A program made the translations under genes and the position numbers. Of a stretch of DNA of 35,819 nt, positions 1 through 35,724 are shown piece after piece. The DNA lies in the IMG/VR virus record IMGVR_UViG_3300027896_000019, positions 1 to 35,819 of that record; one strand, written 5' to 3'. The DNA comes from a virus. Position 1 is the stretch's first letter. The number at the start of each line of letters is the position of its first letter. The notes beneath the pieces were generated by a model. That model ran no database searches and had not been told where the DNA came from. It saw only the letters and a list, made by a program, of their open reading frames with translations.

Positions 1-68
1 TTTCTGACTATAGCAGAACCAACCATTCCTGTAGAACCTAAAACTAATATTTTTGAATCAATATTCAT
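1..68 (-). CDS. fcl: GDP-L-fucose synthase, N-terminal fragment (cut by window edge)
   Basis: Only the first 22 codons are inside the window. They read [20 protein letters not shown] and then VRK, which is the start of a Rossmann fold with the GxxGxxG dinucleotide-binding loop (GSTGMVG) typical of GDP-L-fucose synthase (GDP-4-keto-6-deoxymannose epimerase/reductase). The start codon overlaps the gmd stop in an ATGA, so the two are translationally coupled. The family normally follows gmd and converts its product to GDP-L-fucose with NADPH. The assignment rests on the motif and the gmd linkage. Another short-chain dehydrogenase/epimerase (for example a GDP-rhamnose-forming reductase) is possible, because only the cofactor loop is visible. 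Confidence 0.8.
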
Positions 69-1102
69 CTATTATCCTCCAACTTCAAATCAGCATCCAT
101 CATTAAATTAACTAAATCTTCAAATGTTGTTTTTGGACTCCAACCAAGTATTGACTTTGCCTTACTAGAATCACCTAGTAAAATATCAACCTCAAGTGGT
201 CTGAAAAACCTTTTATCAACTTCAACAACTTTTTTGTTGTTCCTAGCATTAATCCCAATCTCGTCAACTCCACTTCCTTGCCATTCGATATTTATATCTA
301 CATATTTAAATGCCTTCTCAACAAATTCTCTAATGGTATGCGTTTCACCTGTTGCCAGTACATAATCATCAGCACTATCTTGTTGTAACATCATATACAT
401 TCCTTCAACAAAATCTCTAGCAAATCCAAAATCTCTTTGCGCATCTAAATTACCCAAAGTTAAAATAGATTGTTTGCCAAAATATATTCTGGAAACAGCC
501 TGTGTAATTTTTCTACACACAAATGTTGGTAATCTTCTAGGACTTGTATGATTAAACAATATTCCATTACATGCAAACATATTATATGCTTCTCTATAGT
601 TAACTGTTGCCCAATATGCGTATAATTTTGCTATTGCATATGGGCTTCTAGGAGTAAATGGAGTGTTCTCATTTTGTGGTTGTGTTCCTTCTAACCCACC
701 AAATAATTCACTTGTAGACGCTTGGTAATATTTTGTTTGTATCTGTGTATCTTTGATAGCATCTAACAATCTAATCGCTCCTAAAGCAACAGTATTACCA
801 GTAAACTCTGGTAATTCAAATGACACCATAACATGACTTTGAGCAGATAGATTATATATTTCATCAGGTTTAACCTTATTTAATATTCTATTAATACTAT
901 TTGCATCTGTCATATCACCATAATGTAAATGTAAAGTTTTATATCCAATATTAGGATTTTCATATAAGTGGTCAATTCTATCTGTATTAAATGAGCTAGA
1001 CTTCCTTATTAATCCATGAACATCATAACCTTTATCTAATAATAATTCAGTTAAATAACTACCATCTTGTCCTGTTATTCCTGTTATAAGTGCTTTTTTC
1101 AT
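65..1102 (-). CDS. gmd: GDP-mannose 4,6-dehydratase
   Basis: 345 residues, the usual family length. Converts GDP-D-mannose to GDP-4-keto-6-deoxy-D-mannose in the cytosol, the first step to GDP-L-fucose. Visible motifs are the NADP loop GITGQDG near residues 8-14, the segment TSELFGG with T130 and E132, and YAIAK with Y155 and K159, matching the T/E/Y/K catalytic set of the family. An in-frame ATG four codons upstream (position 1114) exists, but the GGGTGA ribosome site is spaced correctly only for the start used here. The gene starts 4 bases after the upstream methyltransferase stop and overlaps fcl by four bases, so it is mid-operon in the sugar cassette. Confidence 0.95.
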
Positions 1103-1106
1103 ATAA

Positions 1107-1676
1107 TCACCCATTTGTATTTATATAGTCCCAATTCCAATGCTCCATTTGAGCAACAATTACATCTTCTGGTACATAACCATCGTCATAACTAATTAAA
1201 TAATTTTCATTAATTTCTTTAATCTTTTCAAGTATATCTGATTCAAGTACTTGATATTTTTGATATAATGCACTATTATTATTCCACATTCTTCTATCAT
1301 CAATTAATAAAGTATGTGTTTTAATTTTATGTTGTTTAATAATATTAAGTTCGTCAATCACAGGACACATTTTATCGCCAAATAATGTTGTATTATCGCT
1401 GAAATGTGCATCTAACCAAAAACATATATTTTGGTTTATATCCTTAATTATATCCCAAAGTATTTTCGAACTATCACCTAATATAATTTCTACTGTTTCG
1501 TTATGTTTAAATTTTGCCTTACAATGTTCATAATATCTTGGAGTGATTTCAATTGATATTATTTTTTTAAAGCCTGATTCCAATGCATGTTCGATTCCTC
1601 TACCTAAATAACTACCTGTTTCCACGAACACATTATTATTATTATAATTATTAAAGATATTTTTAACACCTGACAT
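1107..1676 (-). CDS. Putative class I SAM-dependent methyltransferase
   Basis: 189 residues. The segment [17 protein letters not shown] near residues 16-32 resembles motif I of Rossmann methyltransferases (E/D-x-G-x-x-x-G). It is followed by an acidic strand end (IISIEITP) and by GDSSKIL and FWLDAHF, which look like motifs II-IV. Such short proteins occur in glycan clusters of bacteria and large viruses. The likely role is O-methylation of a sugar. It sits between another methyltransferase and gmd with tight spacing and has an AAAGGAG ribosome site. The exact substrate is unknown and the fold call is from motifs only. Confidence 0.6.
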
Positions 1677-1693
1677 TAATTCTCCTTTAATTG

Positions 1694-2278
1694 CTATTGT
1701 TTTTTAATTATAGCCAATGATGCACAAACTTCATCTAATTTTATTTTATTGTCTGTAACAAATTCATCTACTGCAATCGTAACTTCATTAATTATACCAT
1801 AATCATGTATCAACATATATCCATTATGCACTAACTTGTTATAAAAATATTCCATTGCCAACCATGTTGTATGTCCAGTATCTACATCTATATGCACTAA
1901 ACTATAGTTAATTTTTTTATTTTTTATATGTTTTAATGTTTCTGTAGGAAACACACCTTTGTAAAATTTAACATTAAAATACTCTTTTAGGTAATTTTTA
2001 ACATCATCTATGTTACTTATATAATTATCTTCTCTGTATGCAACATTACTTTTTTCTAATACTGTACCTTCGAATGTATCAAATAAATGTAAAACCTTAT
2101 CATTTTTTTTAAGTTCACAAATAATTTTAGCAGAAGCACCTTTCCATACACCAACCTCAACAATATCACCATTTAGTTCTTTAATTTCATTTAAAATATT
2201 ATATAGTTTGCTTGCTTCAAAAAAATTTAATCCATAACAAACTTCTGACTGTATTTTAGAATATAGCTTATTAAACAT
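1694..2278 (-). CDS. TylF/macrocin-type O-methyltransferase
   Basis: 194 residues. Motifs in order are IVEVGVWKGASA (SAM loop), HLFDTFEG, YKGVFPET, LVHIDVD (metal and substrate aspartates) and YMLIHDYG. This succession is characteristic of the TylF family, metal-dependent O-methyltransferases acting on sugar hydroxyls of antibiotics and polysaccharides. It is preceded by AAAGGAGATATAATT as ribosome site. Its place among glycosyltransferases suggests it methylates a sugar on the glycan made by this cassette. The family is clear from motifs; the substrate is inference. Confidence 0.8.
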   Translation of the reverse strand: MFNKLYSKIQSEVCYGLNFFEASKLYNILNEIKELNGDIVEVGVWKGASAKIICELKKNDKVLHLFDTFEGTVLEKSNVAYREDNYISNIDDVKNYLKEYFNVKFYKGVFPTETLKHIKNKKINYSLVHIDVDTGHTTWLAMEYFYNKLVHNGYMLIHDYGIINEVTIAVDEFVTDNKIKLDEVCASLAIIKKQ

Positions 2279-2292
2279 AATTATATCTCCTT

Positions 2293-2916
2293 TTATTTTC
2301 TTATAAATAATGAGTTACCACATTGTAAATAGTTGTAAATATTTTCATTTAACACTTCTACAAAACCAATTTCAGACATAAATTGTTTAAATTCACCATA
2401 TAATGTCAATCCCTCATAAAACTCAACAAGTGAATACTCTGCAAAAATAGCTTTAGTTGTATGCAAAATTTTATCAGCATGTTTCAAAACTTTATGTTCA
2501 TTACCTTGTAAATCTAACCACATAAAATCAATTCTATCAATATTAAAATCTTCAACAAATTTATTAATAGTAATTGTTTGAACAACTTCTTCTCTATCAA
2601 ATGTGCATGTTGGAAACATCGTTAAATGTTCTTTTGGTTTTAATAATGAACTTGACTGATTGGAATATCCATCACTTATATATATTGTTTTTTCCCCTAT
2701 AGTATCATCTAATGCTAAATTATAAGTATGAATGTTTGGTATAGCACATGTACTCTCTGATAACAATTTATATATATGCGATACTGGTTCAAATGAGTAT
2801 ATCGTAGAGTTTTGAAATAATTTAGAAAAGTCTATTGAATCATTTCCATTAAATGCTCCTGCATCTAAAATTACAGCATCATCACTAATATATTGTTTTA
2901 AAATATTTTTGTCCAT
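2293..2916 (-). CDS. FkbM-family methyltransferase
   Basis: 207 residues with the FkbM layout: VILDAGAFNGNDS near residues 16-28 (SAM loop), TIYSFEPV (acidic end of strand 2), YNLALDD, then RIDFMWLDLQGNEHKVL near 140-156 and IFAEYSLVEFY. FkbM enzymes are O-methyltransferases frequently found in lipopolysaccharide, glycopeptide and capsule clusters. The first 32 bases overlap the 3' end of the upstream glycosyltransferase in another frame, implying coupled translation. The sugar position methylated cannot be told from sequence. Confidence 0.85.
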   Translation of the reverse strand: MDKNILKQYISDDAVILDAGAFNGNDSIDFSKLFQNSTIYSFEPVSHIYKLLSESTCAIPNIHTYNLALDDTIGEKTIYISDGYSNQSSSLLKPKEHLTMFPTCTFDREEVVQTITINKFVEDFNIDRIDFMWLDLQGNEHKVLKHADKILHTTKAIFAEYSLVEFYEGLTLYGEFKQFMSEIGFVEVLNENIYNYLQCGNSLFIRK

Positions 2917-3613
2917 TTATCGTTAACCTTTCTTCTATTGGTAAATACATTCTTCTAGAATAAGTTTCTCTATCTTGGTTAAAGTTTTTAAAATTTGCTT
3001 CATCAAATTCATCTTGTTTTCTTTTTCCAGAAACATAATGTTTATGTTGAAATATTACTCCATCTGTATCTCTATCATCTTTCAATAATCCAAGTTCATT
3101 TAAGTTATGATAGGCTTCATTATCAGAAAAACAATGTGTATATTCTGGATGAAATACAATCTTATTTAATTTTTTTAAACAATAATAAGTCATACAGGCT
3201 AAAGTAATACATAAACATCCAACTTTAGAATATTTATTTTGATAACCATCATCTAAAAATACTGCTCCATTCCAATCTATAAATTTGTTTTCTACCCATT
3301 CATCCCAAAATACATTATCTGGTGGATAAAAATCATCTGATAATAAAATCAATATATCTGAATCATTGGCTTCTAAACTTGTTGTTAATTTAGATATTGC
3401 ATAATTATAACCTTTGCGCTCATTATCATATATAATATATCCATTGGCATCATTGAACATTGTATAATCAATTAATTCTTCATCATTAATTTGTGTAATT
3501 ATTAAATGAAGGGACACTCTTTCTGGATGTTTACAATGTTTTAACCATTCTTTATATGTATTCATAAACATTTCTGGTCTAATTGTTGCACCTAAAATTA
3601 AAATGTTTTTCAA
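2885..3613 (-). CDS. Putative GT-A-type glycosyltransferase
   Basis: 242 residues, TTG start behind a GAGGTGT ribosome site. The N-terminus MKNILILGATIRP leads into alternating strands and helices. ILILLSDDFYPP near residues 87-98 looks like the DxD metal/nucleotide-sugar site of GT-A enzymes, and HCFSDNEAYH near 160-169 resembles the late acidic acceptor site. No full family signature is present, so it is a distant GT2-like enzyme at best. It lies between a CgeB-like glycosyltransferase and a sugar methyltransferase, which supports a role in glycan assembly. A non-enzymatic sugar-binding role cannot be excluded. Confidence 0.6.
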   Translation of the reverse strand: MKNILILGATIRPEMFMNTYKEWLKHCKHPERVSLHLIITQINDEELIDYTMFNDANGYIIYDNERKGYNYAISKLTTSLEANDSDILILLSDDFYPPDNVFWDEWVENKFIDWNGAVFLDDGYQNKYSKVGCLCITLACMTYYCLKKLNKIVFHPEYTHCFSDNEAYHNLNELGLLKDDRDTDGVIFQHKHYVSGKRKQDEFDEANFKNFNQDRETYSRRMYLPIEERLTINGQKYFKTIY

Positions 3614-3625
3614 TTATACACCTCA

Positions 3626-4639
3626 TTATATTCCAAGATTAATAATTTCATCTATAATTACTCTTGCTCTTATATCATAATTATGATTCCTTACAACAAA
3701 GTCTCTTGCAATCTTTGCTTTTTGTCTACGATGTTCATCATTCATATTTAAAATTTCTTCAACCATTAATTCTGCTTCATTTGAATTTTTTGCATGATAC
3801 ATATGCTCTCCGAAAATTTCATATTGTGCAGGTTGATAATGTGCTAACATTAAACTCTCGTGACTACAAGCAATAGTTTCATATGGACGCATAGAACAAT
3901 GAGTGTTACTGTTAACAGGCACATTCATTCCAAGCATACATTTACTAGAGTTTGTAACAACTGGTAGCCATTCATAAGGAAGTTCAGCATAACCATCTTT
4001 TGTCCAATAATTATTTGGATAATTTTTTAGATTAACAGGTCTAGTTTCATCCATCCACCAAATGCCATAAATCATCATATCGTATTTTTGCTTTTCTAAT
4101 AAATTCATAACAAACCATTTAGTTTCATCGTATCTATTAGAGTAATTTCTAGCGACTAAGCTAATATCATGTGTAAACGCTTGTTCTTTTGGAACAGGTT
4201 TATGAAAATCAGCATTACATCCAAACAGCAAATTACCACATTTTATATTTCTTAATTTGAAACTAGATAACTTTTCACCCATTGTAGTCCATAGAAAATC
4301 ACAATTAGCACTCATATATTCACCTATTTGTGGTGTGCAATCAGCTTCTATATCCCAACAATGAAATTGAATTCCTTTATGTATAAATAAAGTATATAAT
4401 AAATTAATGGGTAAATTGCTATACCCCTCAGTAAATATTACAGTTGGTTTAAAGGTTTCAACTCTATCCATAATTAACTTAATATGTTGTTCCAAAGGTT
4501 TATCCCATATTGCACAACACTCATTATCTAAAAATGAAGTTTTACAACCAAGATTATCAAAACCAGATTTTAAACCATATTTAATCAAAGGGGTTTGTGA
4601 TAAAAATAATACTCTTATATCCTTATAGTCCTTAATCAT
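3626..4639 (-). CDS. CgeB-like GT-B glycosyltransferase
   Basis: 337 residues. The N-terminal half starts with a Rossmann strand (IRVLFLSQTPLIKYGL). The C-terminal part has SMRPYETIACSHESLML, the donor-binding acidic helix, followed by GEHMYHAKNSNEAELMVEE and the ARDFVVRNHNYDIRARVII ending. This is the pattern of the CgeB/Glyco_trans_1_2 group of GT-B retaining transferases, named after a Bacillus spore-coat maturation protein and common in phage and flagellin glycosylation loci. A GAGGTAGATT ribosome site precedes the ATG. Donor could be the GDP-fucose made by this cassette, which is inference. Confidence 0.8.
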   Translation of the reverse strand: MIKDYKDIRVLFLSQTPLIKYGLKSGFDNLGCKTSFLDNECCAIWDKPLEQHIKLIMDRVETFKPTVIFTEGYSNLPINLLYTLFIHKGIQFHCWDIEADCTPQIGEYMSANCDFLWTTMGEKLSSFKLRNIKCGNLLFGCNADFHKPVPKEQAFTHDISLVARNYSNRYDETKWFVMNLLEKQKYDMMIYGIWWMDETRPVNLKNYPNNYWTKDGYAELPYEWLPVVTNSSKCMLGMNVPVNSNTHCSMRPYETIACSHESLMLAHYQPAQYEIFGEHMYHAKNSNEAELMVEEILNMNDEHRRQKAKIARDFVVRNHNYDIRARVIIDEIINLGI

Positions 4640-4647
4640 AATCTACC

Positions 4648-5640
4648 TCAAATTTTGATATTATTTTTTACTGCAAACTTATCAATTGCTTGTTCAATCA
4701 CATCAACACGACTATACCAACTATTCTGACTTGCTATGTTTTTACATTTATTAATAATTTCTATATCATCTTTACATCTTAATGCCCTATAAACATTATT
4801 AATAAATTCAATATGATTTCTACTTGCATAAACAGCATCAGGGTATATCGTAGCTTCTGGTATATCTGTTGCAACGGTTATTTTGCCGTGTGACATAGCT
4901 TCGTAGTTTTTTATTGGATTACTATAATCCGCTACTTGGCAACGCTTAAAAGGAAGGATATTAACGTCACAGTGATGATAGTATGCCTGTAAATCTTTAT
5001 AAGATTTTTTGCCAATATATACAATGTCTTTTGGTGCTTTGGATAACCCCCATCCTATTCCTACAACGGCTAAAGTGAATTTTGAGGCTAGTTTCTCAAC
5101 TAATTCAATATCACACCAACTGCCTGACAAAGCCCCAGAAAACAATAAAATTGGACGTTTTAAGCCTATGAATTCTTGGGGAACTTGATAAGCCTGATTA
5201 CCCAACTCTGGGAAACATGCATTTCTACACATATGTATATTAGGATGTTGGTTTTTTCTTAAATCATATAAAGGTTGTGAGGTTGTAAGTAGAATATCCG
5301 CTTTTTCCACCATTAGATGTTCATCAGATGCATTTTCTTCAAAATTATCTAATGAATCATAGATGTGAATTTTGTAATTAAGTTCGTTTAATTCTTTATG
5401 TTTATGTGACCATGAAGTAAATGCTATATCAATTTTAGGAACTCTTTTTTTAAATAAATCCCAATTATGATAAAGAGTAAAATTGTCATTTAGTCTTTCT
5501 CTATTACAATGAATATTAAATGATTTATTTATCCAATATACATGATAGCCACGTTGACTAAATATATCCATTAAATGATGTGGACGTTGTTTTAACGCAA
5601 AATCATAGTCAATTGTATTAAAATATGCTATAGATTTCAT
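4648..5640 (-). CDS. GT-B (family 4-like) glycosyltransferase
   Basis: 330 residues from the internal ATG at 5640, which has an AAAGGGGTATCA ribosome site. A longer frame extends 23 codons upstream but would run back through the terminator and promoter. RPHHLMDIFSQRGYHVYW near residues 18-35 is the usual GT4 N-terminal acceptor region. RPILLFSGALSG opens the C-terminal domain, and NPIKNYEAMSHGKITVATD is the E-x7-E-like donor site. First gene of the sugar cassette, directly behind its own promoter, so probably the committed transferase of the pathway. Confidence 0.8.
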   Translation of the reverse strand: MKSIAYFNTIDYDFALKQRPHHLMDIFSQRGYHVYWINKSFNIHCNRERLNDNFTLYHNWDLFKKRVPKIDIAFTSWSHKHKELNELNYKIHIYDSLDNFEENASDEHLMVEKADILLTTSQPLYDLRKNQHPNIHMCRNACFPELGNQAYQVPQEFIGLKRPILLFSGALSGSWCDIELVEKLASKFTLAVVGIGWGLSKAPKDIVYIGKKSYKDLQAYYHHCDVNILPFKRCQVADYSNPIKNYEAMSHGKITVATDIPEATIYPDAVYASRNHIEFINNVYRALRCKDDIEIINKCKNIASQNSWYSRVDVIEQAIDKFAVKNNIKI

Positions 5641-5658
5641 TGATACCCCTTTTTTGGC

Positions 5659-5700
5659 TAAAAAAAATAATAGGGATATATTATCTATATCCCTATTATT
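5659..5700 (-). terminator. Intrinsic terminator of the virion operon
   Basis: A perfect 15-bp inverted repeat (5666-5680 with 5686-5700, stem AATAATAGGGATATA) around a 5-base loop. On the minus strand it is followed directly by seven T residues. It sits 42 bases past the stop of the probable tail tube gene, so it should end the structural-gene transcript. Confidence 0.85.
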
Positions 5701-5729
5701 ATAATACATCTATATATTAATATTGTCAA
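5701..5729 (-). promoter_or_regulatory. Promoter of the sugar cassette
   Basis: TTGACA (5729-5724) and TATTAT (5706-5701) are separated by exactly 17 bases, with an overlapping TATAAT three bases on. The expected start is near 5694, inside the upstream arm of the terminator stem. RNA from this promoter would therefore lack most of the 5' arm and not form the terminator, while read-through RNA from the capsid genes would. Confidence 0.75.
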
Positions 5730-20821: not shown

Positions 20822-21619
20822 CTACAAAATTTTATATAAACTATCAAAATAACTTTTATCATAACTTCTTTGATTATATTGTTTATACATTGGTGTAGAT
20901 GTATTGGATTTTTTATATTGTTTTGGTTTTTCCTCGATTGGTTTTTCGCTTGATTTAATTATATTTTTTTTGATAATAAATTTGATTGCAGTAACTTTCC
21001 TACCAGTTTTTATTTCTTCAAACTCAAAAGAAATATCTGTCTTTTTTGCAAGTTCTTTTTGTGAAATTAAAATAACTTTTTGTTTAAAATTGCTATACAA
21101 ATCATATTTTTTTTCTAAAATATCTTGTAGATAATCTACAGTGTAAATAACATCTGCTTTTGTTTTAAATTCATTAGCCTTTAAAATTTCATATATTCTA
21201 ATAGCATATTTTGATTTAAGAGATAAAATATTTTTTAGATTATATTGTGTATACATTTCTTTCAATCCTAAAAAAAATGGTTTAGTACTAGACCTTAATT
21301 GTAATTCAAATCTTTTTGTTTTGAAATTATATGGTGCTTCTTTTAACCAATGGTATGGTTTCATTTGTATATCATCTGTAATTATAAATGATTTAGCATG
21401 TAGCTTCATAACAATATCAATTATCATTTTATAATTGGAATTACTAATTTGTAATAAGTTTGCTATTTCACTTATTGTAAAATAATAAATTTTAAAATCA
21501 TCATCCTCGGCTTTAACTAATGATGCCAAGGTTAAAATAATTTTTTGTTCAAATTCTGTCAATGAATATTTGGCTGTTACAAGTGAATTTGCTTTTCTCA
21601 CTAACAAATCTTTATTCAC
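20822..21619 (-). CDS. Rep_3-family plasmid replication initiator
   Basis: 265 residues, GTG start 7 bases after AAAGGAG. Opens with the Rep_3 signature region (KANSLVTAKYSLTEFEQKII), followed by the first winged helix (ISEIANLLQISNSNYKMI), the linker and second winged helix (LKNILSLKSKYAIRIYEIL, then the DILEKKYDLYSNFKQKVI segment typical of RepA/RepE). Binds iterons to open the origin, and dimers usually repress their own promoter. Six iterons lie immediately upstream and overlap its promoter, completing the expected replicon. The C-terminal 40 residues are polar and probably disordered. Confidence 0.9.
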   Translation of the reverse strand: MNKDLLVRKANSLVTAKYSLTEFEQKIILTLASLVKAEDDDFKIYYFTISEIANLLQISNSNYKMIIDIVMKLHAKSFIITDDIQMKPYHWLKEAPYNFKTKRFELQLRSSTKPFFLGLKEMYTQYNLKNILSLKSKYAIRIYEILKANEFKTKADVIYTVDYLQDILEKKYDLYSNFKQKVILISQKELAKKTDISFEFEEIKTGRKVTAIKFIIKKNIIKSSEKPIEEKPKQYKKSNTSTPMYKQYNQRSYDKSYFDSLYKIL

Positions 21620-21655: not shown

Positions 21656-21684
21656 ATTTTATGTATTAGATATTACCTTGTCAA
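21656..21684 (-). promoter_or_regulatory. rep promoter overlapping iteron 1
   Basis: TTGACA (21684-21679) and TAAAAT (21661-21656) with 17-base spacing. The last four bases of the -35 region are the start of iteron 1 (21681-21700), so Rep bound to the iteron would block RNA polymerase. Confidence 0.75.
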
Positions 21685-21889
21685 TGTAAAAGTAATAGTT
21701 TCAATGTAAAAGTAATAATAACTCAATGTAAACGGAATAGTTCCTCAATGTAAAAGTAATATTATTCAATGTAAACGTAATATTTAAAATTTGAAACCCT
21801 TACTACTGTATGTCTGGACAACCTCCTGAAATTAGAAGTATTAAAGAAATAAGGAAAGAACGAATTGTTTCAATGTAAAAGTAATAGTT
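21681..21889. repeat. Iteron array: five tandem and one separate copy
   Basis: Consensus TCAATGTAAAAGTAATAGTT. Copies start at 21681, 21701, 21723, 21745, 21766 and 21870. The first five are spaced 20, 22, 22 and 21 bases, about two helical turns, and the sixth lies 104 bases further, about ten turns. Copies 3 and 5 carry CGG or CGT in place of AGT. Direct orientation and placement before a Rep_3 gene identify Rep-binding iterons. Confidence 0.9.
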
Positions 21890-22070
21890 AGCATTATAAA
21901 TAACCCTACACAACATTCATATGTAAGGATTCAATGTTCACAAACATAGTAATATTTCACTCCTTTTTTGTAATAGTTCATATATCACAATCCTGTAAAT
22001 AGAGAAAAACACTAACCCGATATTCTTTGTTAGTATCTTGAAATATGACAGCAAAAATCACCACATTAAC

Positions 22071-33232: not shown

Positions 33233-33535
33233 TCAACGATATTCGTCCAACAACATCCAATCATCTGATAATAAATCTGTCTGTGATGCTAACCATGGAA
33301 CAACATTACCTTGTGCTGTTTTCATAGCAATATAAGCACCATATGGAACGTATTCACCAAACTCTTTTTTAGCAACATCAGTAACAGATTTATATGTGTT
33401 TTCTGGCACATAGTATATATACATATCTTTGCCATTCCAACCTTTTCTAGCAATCCTAATTCCTTTTTTCATTAATAATAATGCTGTGCCAAATGAGTAT
33501 AGTGGATTTTCAATAGCTCCATGTTCATTTGTCAT
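33233..33535 (-). CDS. tad2: DUF2829 / Tad2-like anti-Thoeris protein
   Basis: 100 residues with the full DUF2829 pattern: FGTALLLMKKGIRIARKGWN and GKDMYIYYVP, then VPYGAYIAMKTAQGNVVPWL and ASQTDLLSDDW. Tad2 proteins of this family are sponges that bind the cyclic ADP-ribose-like signal of Thoeris defence and so stop host defence. Members differ in which nucleotide they bind, so activity here is not proven. Very good TAAGGAGGTTTAAC ribosome site. It lies among tiny early genes, the typical anti-defence location. Confidence 0.85.
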   Translation of the reverse strand: MTNEHGAIENPLYSFGTALLLMKKGIRIARKGWNGKDMYIYYVPENTYKSVTDVAKKEFGEYVPYGAYIAMKTAQGNVVPWLASQTDLLSDDWMLLDEYR

Positions 33536-34062: not shown

Positions 34063-34305
34063 TTATAATAATTCACTATCATATTGATGTTGTAAGTTAA
34101 TCCAAAAACTAGCATCAATATTTAATGAATATTGTAGATGGTTAGCAAACCCATCAGTAATAGGTTTAATACCATTTAATACTTGGTTTATATAAGCAAC
34201 TGATGAACCTGTTCTAATTGCTAAATATTCAACAGTCATATTTCTTTCCTTCATAACATCTCTTAGCGTATCTCCTGCATGTAATCTAATTTTTCTTTTA
34301 GCCAT
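34063..34305 (-). CDS. HigA-like XRE antitoxin/regulator
   Basis: 80 residues from the ATG at 34305 (AAGGAGAATGATA site). Pattern of the HigA/VapI family: RLHAGDTLRDVMKERNMTVE, then INQVLNGIKPITDGFANHLQ and ASFWINLQHQYD. HigA normally neutralises the RelE-like HigB encoded beside it; no HigB-like gene is adjacent, so this is an orphan that may act on a host toxin or as a transcription regulator. The family call is strong; the role is inference. Confidence 0.8.
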   Translation of the reverse strand: MAKRKIRLHAGDTLRDVMKERNMTVEYLAIRTGSSVAYINQVLNGIKPITDGFANHLQYSLNIDASFWINLQHQYDSELL

Positions 34306-34468
34306 TATCATTCTCCTTAATAGTAACCATACCTAAAATATTTACTAATACAATCGCAACACACAAACCAAATCCAACATAATCATGAGTAGATAGAAAT
34401 AATAAAGCTCCAACAGATGATAACAAAGCTACAATAAACATTAACAATTGAACTAAATGTTTACCCAT
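34298..34468 (-). CDS. Small two-pass membrane protein
   Basis: 56 residues from the ATG at 34468 (GAGGTATACG site). Two hydrophobic segments (LVQLLMFIVALLSSVGALLF and VGFGLCVAIVLVNILGMV) and a short charged end. Overlaps both neighbours by 8 bases. A holin or exclusion peptide is possible by shape; unknown. Confidence 0.55.
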   Translation of the reverse strand: MGKHLVQLLMFIVALLSSVGALLFLSTHDYVGFGLCVAIVLVNILGMVTIKENDNG

Positions 34469-34643
34469 CGTATACCTCATAATCTTTAGTTAGAGCAATA
34501 TCCCAACATACATAACAGTCTTTATTATCACAATTACTGATAAGTCCAACATGGTGTGGACAGCAATGTGTAGGTTCATGTTTACTTAACAAATACAATA
34601 GCATTATTTTATTTTCATTCCAAGCCTTGCATATACCTATCAT
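34461..34643 (-). CDS. CPHxVGL-type cysteine microprotein, copy 2
   Basis: 60 residues: helical start, then CCPHHVGLISNCDN and DCYVCWDIALTKDYE. Same arrangement as the 29626-29841 protein (CPHxVGL, spaced cysteines, C-x2-C-W-x-x-A-L-T), so a paralogue. First gene of the early operon, 45 bases downstream of a promoter, with AGGAGAGAGAT before the ATG. Function unknown. Confidence 0.65.
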   Translation of the reverse strand: MIGICKAWNENKIMLLYLLSKHEPTHCCPHHVGLISNCDNKDCYVCWDIALTKDYEVYDG

Positions 34644-34687: not shown

Positions 34688-34716
34688 AGTATACATTTTA
34701 TGTAGCTTTATGTCAA
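34688..34716 (-). promoter_or_regulatory. Early-operon promoter (fifth of a series)
   Basis: TTGACA (34716-34711), 17-base spacer, TATACT (34693-34688). Expected RNA start near 34681, 38 bases before the first early gene. Confidence 0.85.
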
Positions 34717-34750
34717 TTTGAAATTTTAGAATACCCCTCATATATATAAC

Positions 34751-34773
34751 AAAACCCCAACATATTGAGGGGG
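34751..34773 (-). terminator. Terminator upstream of the early promoter
   Basis: Stem CCCC-CAA/TTG-GGGG with a one-base bulge, TATG loop, then TTTTG on the minus strand. Ends transcripts from the two promoters further right before the early operon begins. A larger pairing (CCCCTCA/TGAGGGG, 34734-34772) is an alternative fold. Confidence 0.6.
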
Positions 34774-34850
34774 CTAATTTGTAGGTTATTAGCATATCAA
34801 CATGTTAGGGCTTTATTATACACAATTCATACTATACAAAAGATAAAGGC
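34751..34850 (-). ncRNA. Candidate small RNA, unit 4
   Basis: About 100 bases between the start expected from the 34857-34885 promoter and the 34751 terminator. No ribosome site with a reading frame longer than a few codons. Contains a 6-bp hairpin (GCTAAT/ATTAGC, 34773-34793). Whether it is made or does anything is not known. Confidence 0.5.
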
Positions 34851-34856
34851 AAACTT

Positions 34857-34885
34857 AGTATACTATGATTAATTAATTATGTCAA
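34857..34885 (-). promoter_or_regulatory. Promoter of small RNA unit 4
   Basis: TTGACA (34885-34880), 17-base spacer, TATACT (34862-34857). It starts directly after the long hairpin of unit 3. Confidence 0.8.
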
Positions 34886-34888
34886 TAC

Positions 34889-34980
34889 AAAATCCTACTT
34901 GGTTGATTTTATTTCTACTGGGAAGAAGTATAGTCTAATCAACTAGTAGGATTTTATATATAAGTATACGCTACTGAATT
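34889..34980 (-). ncRNA. Candidate small RNA, unit 3, with long hairpin
   Basis: Expected start 34980 from the promoter at 34987-35015. The RNA would fold into 11 plus 7 base pairs (AAAATCCTACT with AGTAGGATTTT; GTTGATT with AATCAAC; 34889-34955) with a 28-base loop containing CUUCUUCCC. The 3' arm ends in TTTTG, so the stem may also terminate. No coding potential. Confidence 0.55.
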
Positions 34981-34986
34981 AATTAT

Positions 34987-35015
34987 ATTATACATGTTTA
35001 TTTTAATATTGTCAA
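34987..35015 (-). promoter_or_regulatory. Perfect consensus promoter of small RNA unit 3
   Basis: TTGACA (35015-35010), 17-base spacer, TATAAT (34992-34987): both boxes match the sigma-A consensus in every base. Confidence 0.85.
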
Positions 35016-35062
35016 TAGAGAATCTATTGATGTTCTGTTAATTATCTGCTGATTGTCTGTTA

Positions 35063-35094
35063 ATACAAAAAAAACATCTACTGATAGATGTTTT
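35063..35094 (-). terminator. Strong terminator of small RNA unit 2
   Basis: 10-bp perfect stem AAAACATCTA/TAGATGTTTT (35071-35080 with 35085-35094), 4-base loop, then eight T residues on the minus strand. Confidence 0.85.
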
Positions 35095-35129
35095 AATGTG
35101 TCTCAACAATAAATTAGTAAATCGTATGT
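35067..35129 (-). ncRNA. Candidate small RNA, unit 2
   Basis: About 63 bases from the start expected of the 35136-35164 promoter to the terminator at 35063-35094. No reading frame. The 5' half is single-stranded by eye (CACATACGATTTACTAATTT), the 3' half is the terminator hairpin, a layout like plasmid antisense RNAs. Confidence 0.55.
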
Positions 35130-35135
35130 GGTTAC

Positions 35136-35164
35136 ATTATATATTGTTTTATTATATTTGTAAA
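35136..35164 (-). promoter_or_regulatory. Promoter of small RNA unit 2
   Basis: TTTACA (35164-35159), 17-base spacer, TATAAT (35141-35136). Confidence 0.75.
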
Positions 35165-35255
35165 TAGAAAAACTATATAAATTAATATATAGTTTATCTA
35201 TAACAAAAATTAGAAAAGGAAAAAAATGAAACAAATACAACTCTCAAGCACCATT
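35165..35255 (-). ncRNA. Candidate small RNA, unit 1
   Basis: About 90 bases from the start expected of the 35262-35290 promoter to a 9-bp AT-only hairpin (AACTATATA/TATATAGTT, 35171-35179 with 35186-35194) followed by TTTTTC. The middle is pyrimidine-rich. Read-through would end at 35063. No convincing reading frame. Confidence 0.5.
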
Positions 35256-35300
35256 ATATTCATTATAAGTTTAATTTTTTATTTTGTCAACCTATTTTGA
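35226..35300 (+). CDS. 24-residue hydrophobic peptide on the plus strand (tentative)
   Basis: ATG preceded by AAAAGGAAAAAA; reads MKQIQLSSTIIFIISLIFYF and VNLF. It is the only candidate gene on the plus strand and overlaps the promoter and start of small RNA unit 1, which would be antisense to its ribosome site. No clear plus-strand promoter was seen. T-rich DNA easily gives such hydrophobic strings, so confidence is low. Confidence 0.2.
   Translation: MKQIQLSSTIIFIISLIFYFVNLF
35262..35290 (-). promoter_or_regulatory. Perfect consensus promoter of small RNA unit 1
   Basis: TTGACA (35290-35285), 17-base spacer, TATAAT (35267-35262): both boxes fully consensus. Confidence 0.85.
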
Positions 35301-35564: not shown

Positions 35565-35724
35565 ACATGATGTAGGTTATTTGGCATAGCGATTAACTAT
35601 AGTGTGGAATTGTAGAGTAATTTGACATAGTGTAGGATTGTAGGAGTAATATCTTATAGTGTAGGAATCTAGGAGTATAGAATTCTATAAGAGAAATTCC
35701 TTATAGTGTAGAATACTGGGAGTG
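35565..35724. repeat. Degenerate direct repeats (TATAGTGTAGGAATNTAGGAGTA)
   Basis: At least four units, starting near 35598, 35626, 35655 and 35702, with a weaker one near 35565. Steps are about 28, 29 and 47 bases. Each has TAGTGTRG followed by a 'TAGGAGTA'-like end. The stretch from 35301 to the window end has no supported gene; these repeats and the dyad are all that was seen there. Confidence 0.6.

Follow-up and report, generated by a model that had tools for sequence, protein, structure and literature searches.

The window, by which we mean the whole stretch of DNA that was analysed (35,819 nucleotides), comprises bases 1-35819 of a 99,819-base IMG/VR virus record and has a G+C content of 29%. 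The terminase is 67-77% identical to those of several uncultured contigs, and its nearest named records, at 27% identity, are from large Firmicute phages (Lactococcus 949-type, Bacillus and Clostridioides). Genes are directed leftward as far as 34643, followed by a mostly non-coding gap of about 3 kb, after which they are directed rightward. The leftward block includes the following early genes.

34461..34643, minus strand: first early gene, 60 amino acids, no family match
34063..34311, minus strand: early gene with a helix-turn-helix (HTH_3; plasmid antitoxin-like PHROG) from family searches
33233..33535, minus strand: early gene, Tad2-like (Thoeris anti-defence domain; Pfam PF11195, E 9.5e-25)

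Relatives of the Tad2-like protein are encoded at 63 viral loci, and no promoter cluster was found at any of these. Searches of viral contigs for relatives of the 60-amino-acid first early protein and of the helix-turn-helix protein returned none. A gene for a Rep3 plasmid-type initiator was identified by family search at 20822-21619, with six iterons of 20-22 bp (TATTACTTTTACATTGA) upstream of it at 21680-21900. These constitute a separate plasmid-type origin at 21.7 kb, away from the promoters described below, and because both the initiator and its upstream iterons are encoded, a phage-plasmid life style is possible and the virus may be a phage-plasmid. No tRNA or known RNA was found within the window. 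At its left end (65-5709), genes resembling those for glycosyltransferases, sugar epimerases and methyltransferases, as judged by eye, adjoin structural genes.

Just before the early operon lies an array of five leftward promoters, preceded by a set of direct repeats.

35598..35712, minus strand: direct repeats, four CCTACACTATA-like copies at spacings of 47, 29 and 28, upstream of P1
35262..35290, minus strand: promoter P1, TTGACA-17-TATAAT, 12/12
35136..35164, minus strand: promoter P2, TTTACA-17-TATAAT, 11/12
34987..35015, minus strand: promoter P3, TTGACA-17-TATAAT, 12/12
34857..34885, minus strand: promoter P4, TTGACA-17-TATACT, 11/12
34688..34716, minus strand: promoter P5, driving the early operon, TTGACA-17-TATACT, 11/12

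The repeats are possibly operator or (lytic) origin repeats. The five promoters occupy 603 nt and have 17-nt spacers throughout, with start-to-start distances from P1 to P5 of 126, 149, 130 and 169. An earlier note made from the sequence had described exactly this: five leftward promoters at these positions, 126-169 bases apart, with 17-base spacers and near-perfect boxes. It had also assigned the early genes to the fifth promoter, and P5 is indeed followed by an AGGAG Shine-Dalgarno sequence and then, at 34643, by the start codon ATG of the first gene in this operon. When this AT-rich stretch was simulated with a first-order Markov model, the expected number of such promoters with a 17-nt spacer was 0.02 per 760 nt, and more than two occurred in 0 of 2000 simulations. 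The plus strand of the same DNA has no promoter of 10/12 or better. Over the 99.8-kb contig there are 21 sites of at least 11/12, five of them being P1-P5, and when these 21 sites were placed uniformly, none of 20,000 trials had five of them on the same strand within 574 nt. At a loose threshold of 9/12 there was no excess (16 versus 17.1), and the promoter signal is therefore confined to the near-consensus class.

Each of the first four promoters would give a short RNA ending at a hairpin.

35164..35255, minus strand: predicted P1 RNA, non-coding, about 90 nt, weak hairpin at 35201-35164
35063..35129, minus strand: predicted P2 RNA, about 65 nt, 10-bp hairpin at 35094-35071 and T-rich tail
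34886..34980, minus strand: predicted P3 RNA, about 95 nt, long hairpin at 34958-34886
34740..34850, minus strand: predicted P4 RNA, about 110 nt, very long hairpin at 34824-34741

All four promoters are thus followed by a hairpin, as had been proposed, but these are uneven, with P2-P4 standing above shuffles and P1 not. The P1 hairpin, which abuts the P2 -35 box, consists of A-U pairs only and is chance-like (fold z -2.3; an equally strong terminator-like hairpin in 15% of interval shuffles). The P2 stem (AAAACATCTA-TCAG-TAGATGTTTT, 10 bp) followed by its T-rich tail is a textbook small intrinsic terminator (z -1.7; matched in 3.5% of interval shuffles). In P3 and P4 a long outer stem is combined with an inner hairpin. 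The apical loop of P3, UCUUCCC, lies inside the element UCUUCCCAGU, and a U tail leads into the P4 -35 box (z -5.1; 0.5%). P4 has a 28-bp outer stem and a 6-bp inner stem and contains a CCCC-GGGG-TTTTG terminator found by a terminator scan (z -7.4; 0 of 200 shuffles). The description of the hairpins as mostly having a T-run is strictly correct for P2 only, the U tails of P3 (TTTTGTATT) and P4 (TTTTGTTAT) being modest.

In the direction of transcription, the four intervals contain no Shine-Dalgarno-led frame of at least 10 amino acids, in agreement with the claim that the first four promoters drive no reading frame. Comparison of non-overlapping units revealed no similarity beyond shuffles, save a marginal score between U1 and U3 (p 0.04); high scores between neighbouring units were an artefact of overlapping query ranges. 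Having no sequence in common, the four units are not repeats, and a reading of them as repeated decoy RNAs is not supported. TAGTATACTA was considered as a shared operator and rejected, since its two copies are not above chance. Against Rfam there was no match at gathering score, only chance-level miRNA-like matches to the long stems. Another promoter, at 5729-5701, resembles that of P3 (86% over 36 nt). Taking the promoter simulations, the hairpin shuffles and the missing frames together, regular non-coding units before the early operon are beyond chance. The array is real and non-random; its elements are ordinary host-type promoters and terminators, and their combination is unusual.

We searched for DNA relatives of the array region and found none among phages, plasmids or seven related virus records; a search for relatives in bacterial genomes gave one distant match. 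An independent, analogous array with the same layout was found in G005, a 128-kb relative with a 67% identical terminase and the same overall gene arrangement, which supports the interpretation as regular non-coding units. The divergent gap of G005 is different and short, and its array is located elsewhere, in the early arm, where four non-coding promoter-terminator units extend over about 1 kb (51.9-50.7 kb).

51887, minus strand: G005 promoter, 12/12, followed by hairpin and T-run
51349, minus strand: G005 promoter, 10/12, followed by hairpin and T-run
51218, minus strand: G005 promoter, 12/12, followed by hairpin and T-run
51060, minus strand: G005 promoter, 11/12, followed by hairpin and T-run

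The genes flanking these units are on the plus strand, opposite to the array, and hence the array is no promoter stack for its neighbours. This predicted array is the only strong outside support for a small-RNA cluster. No such array is present in the relatives G008, G009 and G010 or in Clostridioides phage LIBA6276, and five related or comparable genomes have no promoter cluster at the strict threshold. Clusters of at least three such promoters were also absent from 556 kb of phage DNA not selected for promoters, an approximate control made up of 63 loci of mixed composition.

One of the G005 units resembles P3. In that unit UCCCAGU starts 65 nt after the promoter, compared with about 63 nt in P3, and a strong hairpin there has the apical loop CUCCCA. 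UCCCAGU occurs 30 times in ten genomes or fragments, and only these two sites have such a setting; in a promoter-anchored survey, a UCCC loop was present in 4 of 130 promoter-terminator units. As the G005 array is located elsewhere and the sequences differ, homology of the two units rests on one 7-mer and the layout, and a MAFFT alignment of them misplaced the loops. The likeness, noticed post hoc in two sequences, is a lead, not proof of homology.

Stacked promoters were then considered in unrelated viral contigs. A pattern scan for pairs of near-consensus promoters separated by 115-145 bases led to loci among which arrays of three to seven promoters numbered at least 49, and three evenly spaced promoters occur in 17 viral contigs, many of them with a gene that has a ribosome-binding site at the end of the stack. 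Like the array described here, the stacks in unrelated IMG/VR contigs have 3-7 near-consensus promoters, 17-nt spacers, steps of about 100-250 nt and mostly non-coding DNA between. They differ in that most intervals are without a terminator (one was present in 29 of 120 intervals among the matches listed) and in that commonly one gene stands at the end. Promoter stacks as such thus recur in phages, and it is the hairpin in every interval that is unusual. To say that the array is not explained by any annotated gene, as in the earlier note, was too strong given the recurrence of early-gene promoter stacks, but those stacks do not have a terminator in every interval. Five of the contigs (L114, L186, L187, L190 and L196) have one triple-promoter stack in common, and in each of them the first interval holds the same terminator hairpin (-13.9 kcal/mol). 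Two others (L191 and L192) have seven near-consensus promoters at steps of 64-98 bases, and most of their intervals have no hairpin.

Our preferred explanation, to which we give a little less than an even chance, is that P1-P4 form a head-to-tail cluster of four immediate-early small-RNA genes followed by the early promoter P5. The promoters, the hairpins, the missing frames and the analogous array in the relative can be read from the DNA itself; transcription, termination, RNA stability and targets of the units are what we infer. A host sigma factor would drive the four genes, each of about 65-110 nt. When the phage infects or is induced, transcription by host RNA polymerase would begin at every near-consensus promoter and for the most part end at the hairpin ahead of the next one, giving discrete structured RNAs, and mRNA would be made from P5 alone. 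The likeliest role of the RNAs would be regulation in trans via base pairing. P3 is the clearest candidate, being the only unit with UCCC in a predicted loop (it is absent from those of P1, P2 and P4), and this loop could pair with Shine-Dalgarno sites of host mRNAs. The UCCC motif is a mark of Shine-Dalgarno-blocking sRNAs in low-GC bacteria (Firmicutes), and the P3 loop thus points to Shine-Dalgarno pairing, as in several Firmicute sRNAs (PMC4132741). Antisense pairing of the units with phage start regions showed no clear excess over shuffles, and for this reason the targets of P3 would be host mRNAs. The same result, together with the separate Rep3-iteron origin, speaks against the copy control that had been suggested for these RNAs; a copy-control antisense RNA is also unlikely because rep, at 20.8-21.6 kb with its own iterons, has no overlap in cis with the array.

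Perhaps the array is instead a stacked early promoter giving redundant, strong recruitment of host polymerase to the early operon, in which the hairpins would act as attenuators or insulators that are leaky and may be relieved by anti-termination, with the short RNAs as by-products. We consider this less probable than the small-RNA cluster, and retain it since stacks recur among phages, though with a hairpin in every interval only unusually. Strong early expression does account for part of the array, because terminator-less stacks recur in unrelated contigs; the early operon is driven by P5, and the weak terminator of P1 may let transcription read into P2. Beyond the rarity of terminators in the intervals of other stacks, however, the P3 and P4 stems exceed the needs of termination and the G005 array is directed away from any operon. 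A further explanation is a transcription-activated replication origin in the style of lactococcal phage c2, where non-coding transcription between divergent gene blocks would open or prime the origin. The array does sit where cumulative GC skew is lowest, at the edge of the AT-rich non-coding gap that separates the divergent blocks, and it adjoins the four CCTACACTATA repeats; such an origin is conceivable from this position and from these upstream repeats. It is nevertheless improbable, given that a complete Rep3-iteron origin is present elsewhere, that GC skew also tracks gene direction and that the G005 array lies outside the divergent gap of that genome.

We regard as very improbable the idea that the units are empty regulatory cassettes, that is, promoter-terminator modules left behind as early genes came and went, comparable to the PeSLs of T4-type phages. 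PeSLs are recurrent sequences, whereas the units here have no sequence in common, and comparison of the array with the rest of the contig gave only matches of promoter length, at 5.7 and 20.8 kb; no gene remnants are visible in the four intervals. With no recurrent homologous promoter-stem-loop motif, the units were not placed in the PeSL class. The idea does agree with the location of promoter and stem-loop modules in a plastic early region and with the account of PeSLs, in the work cited in PMC4503421, as composite promoter-terminator motifs in which an early promoter is coupled to a stem-loop terminator and which are said to mediate gene shuffling. PeSLs are repeated motifs dispersed between genes; the units here are in tandem, non-homologous and enclose no genes.

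Returning to the small-RNA cluster, several known systems are comparable in part. The multicopy sRNA LhrC1-5 of Listeria is likewise encoded by several short genes that have a promoter each, and it has UCCC in its loops, including the terminator loop, compared with the predicted loop of P3 only (PMC4132741). All copies of LhrC are versions of a single sRNA, related to each other and located on a bacterial chromosome, whereas here there are four unrelated phage units, and the array is thus not a multicopy one of the LhrC type. In lactococcal c2-type phages, PE1-T is a non-coding transcript from the first early promoter at the origin, and like the array it is found in the gap between divergent gene blocks, ahead of an early-gene promoter (PMC7150918). 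In c2, two promoters flank the origin (PMC7150918); the array here has five, accompanied by hairpins, and the Rep3-iteron origin is a separate one. In Staphylococcus kayvirus 515A1 an abundant non-coding RNA of unknown function, lncRNA2, is made from an early sigma-70-type promoter; there, two highly transcribed non-coding regions of 525-570 bp lie near tRNA genes and do not form a tandem array (PMC7698491).

It is conceivable, with a rather low probability, that such arrays are batteries of unrelated immediate-early phage sRNAs, the array being kept and its members changing fast across the phage group. Made by host polymerase, these RNAs would precede any phage protein, and they would reprogram host translation, with UCCC loops masking Shine-Dalgarno sites, or inhibit RNA-based defences. 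Four candidate RNA genes in a compact array ahead of an early operon with a Tad2-like anti-defence gene would offer a defined system in which to study takeover of the host at the RNA level. That G005 has such an array too suggests that phage genomes be searched by promoter-hairpin arrays, not by sequence similarity. Little of the non-coding RNA of phages has been charted, and most of it has no known function, as has been said of kayviruses (PMC7698491).

Two other places were noted. To the right of the window (contig 37680-38500; L012 3880-4700), a non-coding stretch between small rightward genes is rich in short inverted repeats of the TGGAAAT..ATTTCCA type, with no Rfam match. At L013 5708-5820, a tRNA-like Rfam match of 113 nt exceeds normal tRNA length, perhaps by an insert or intron.
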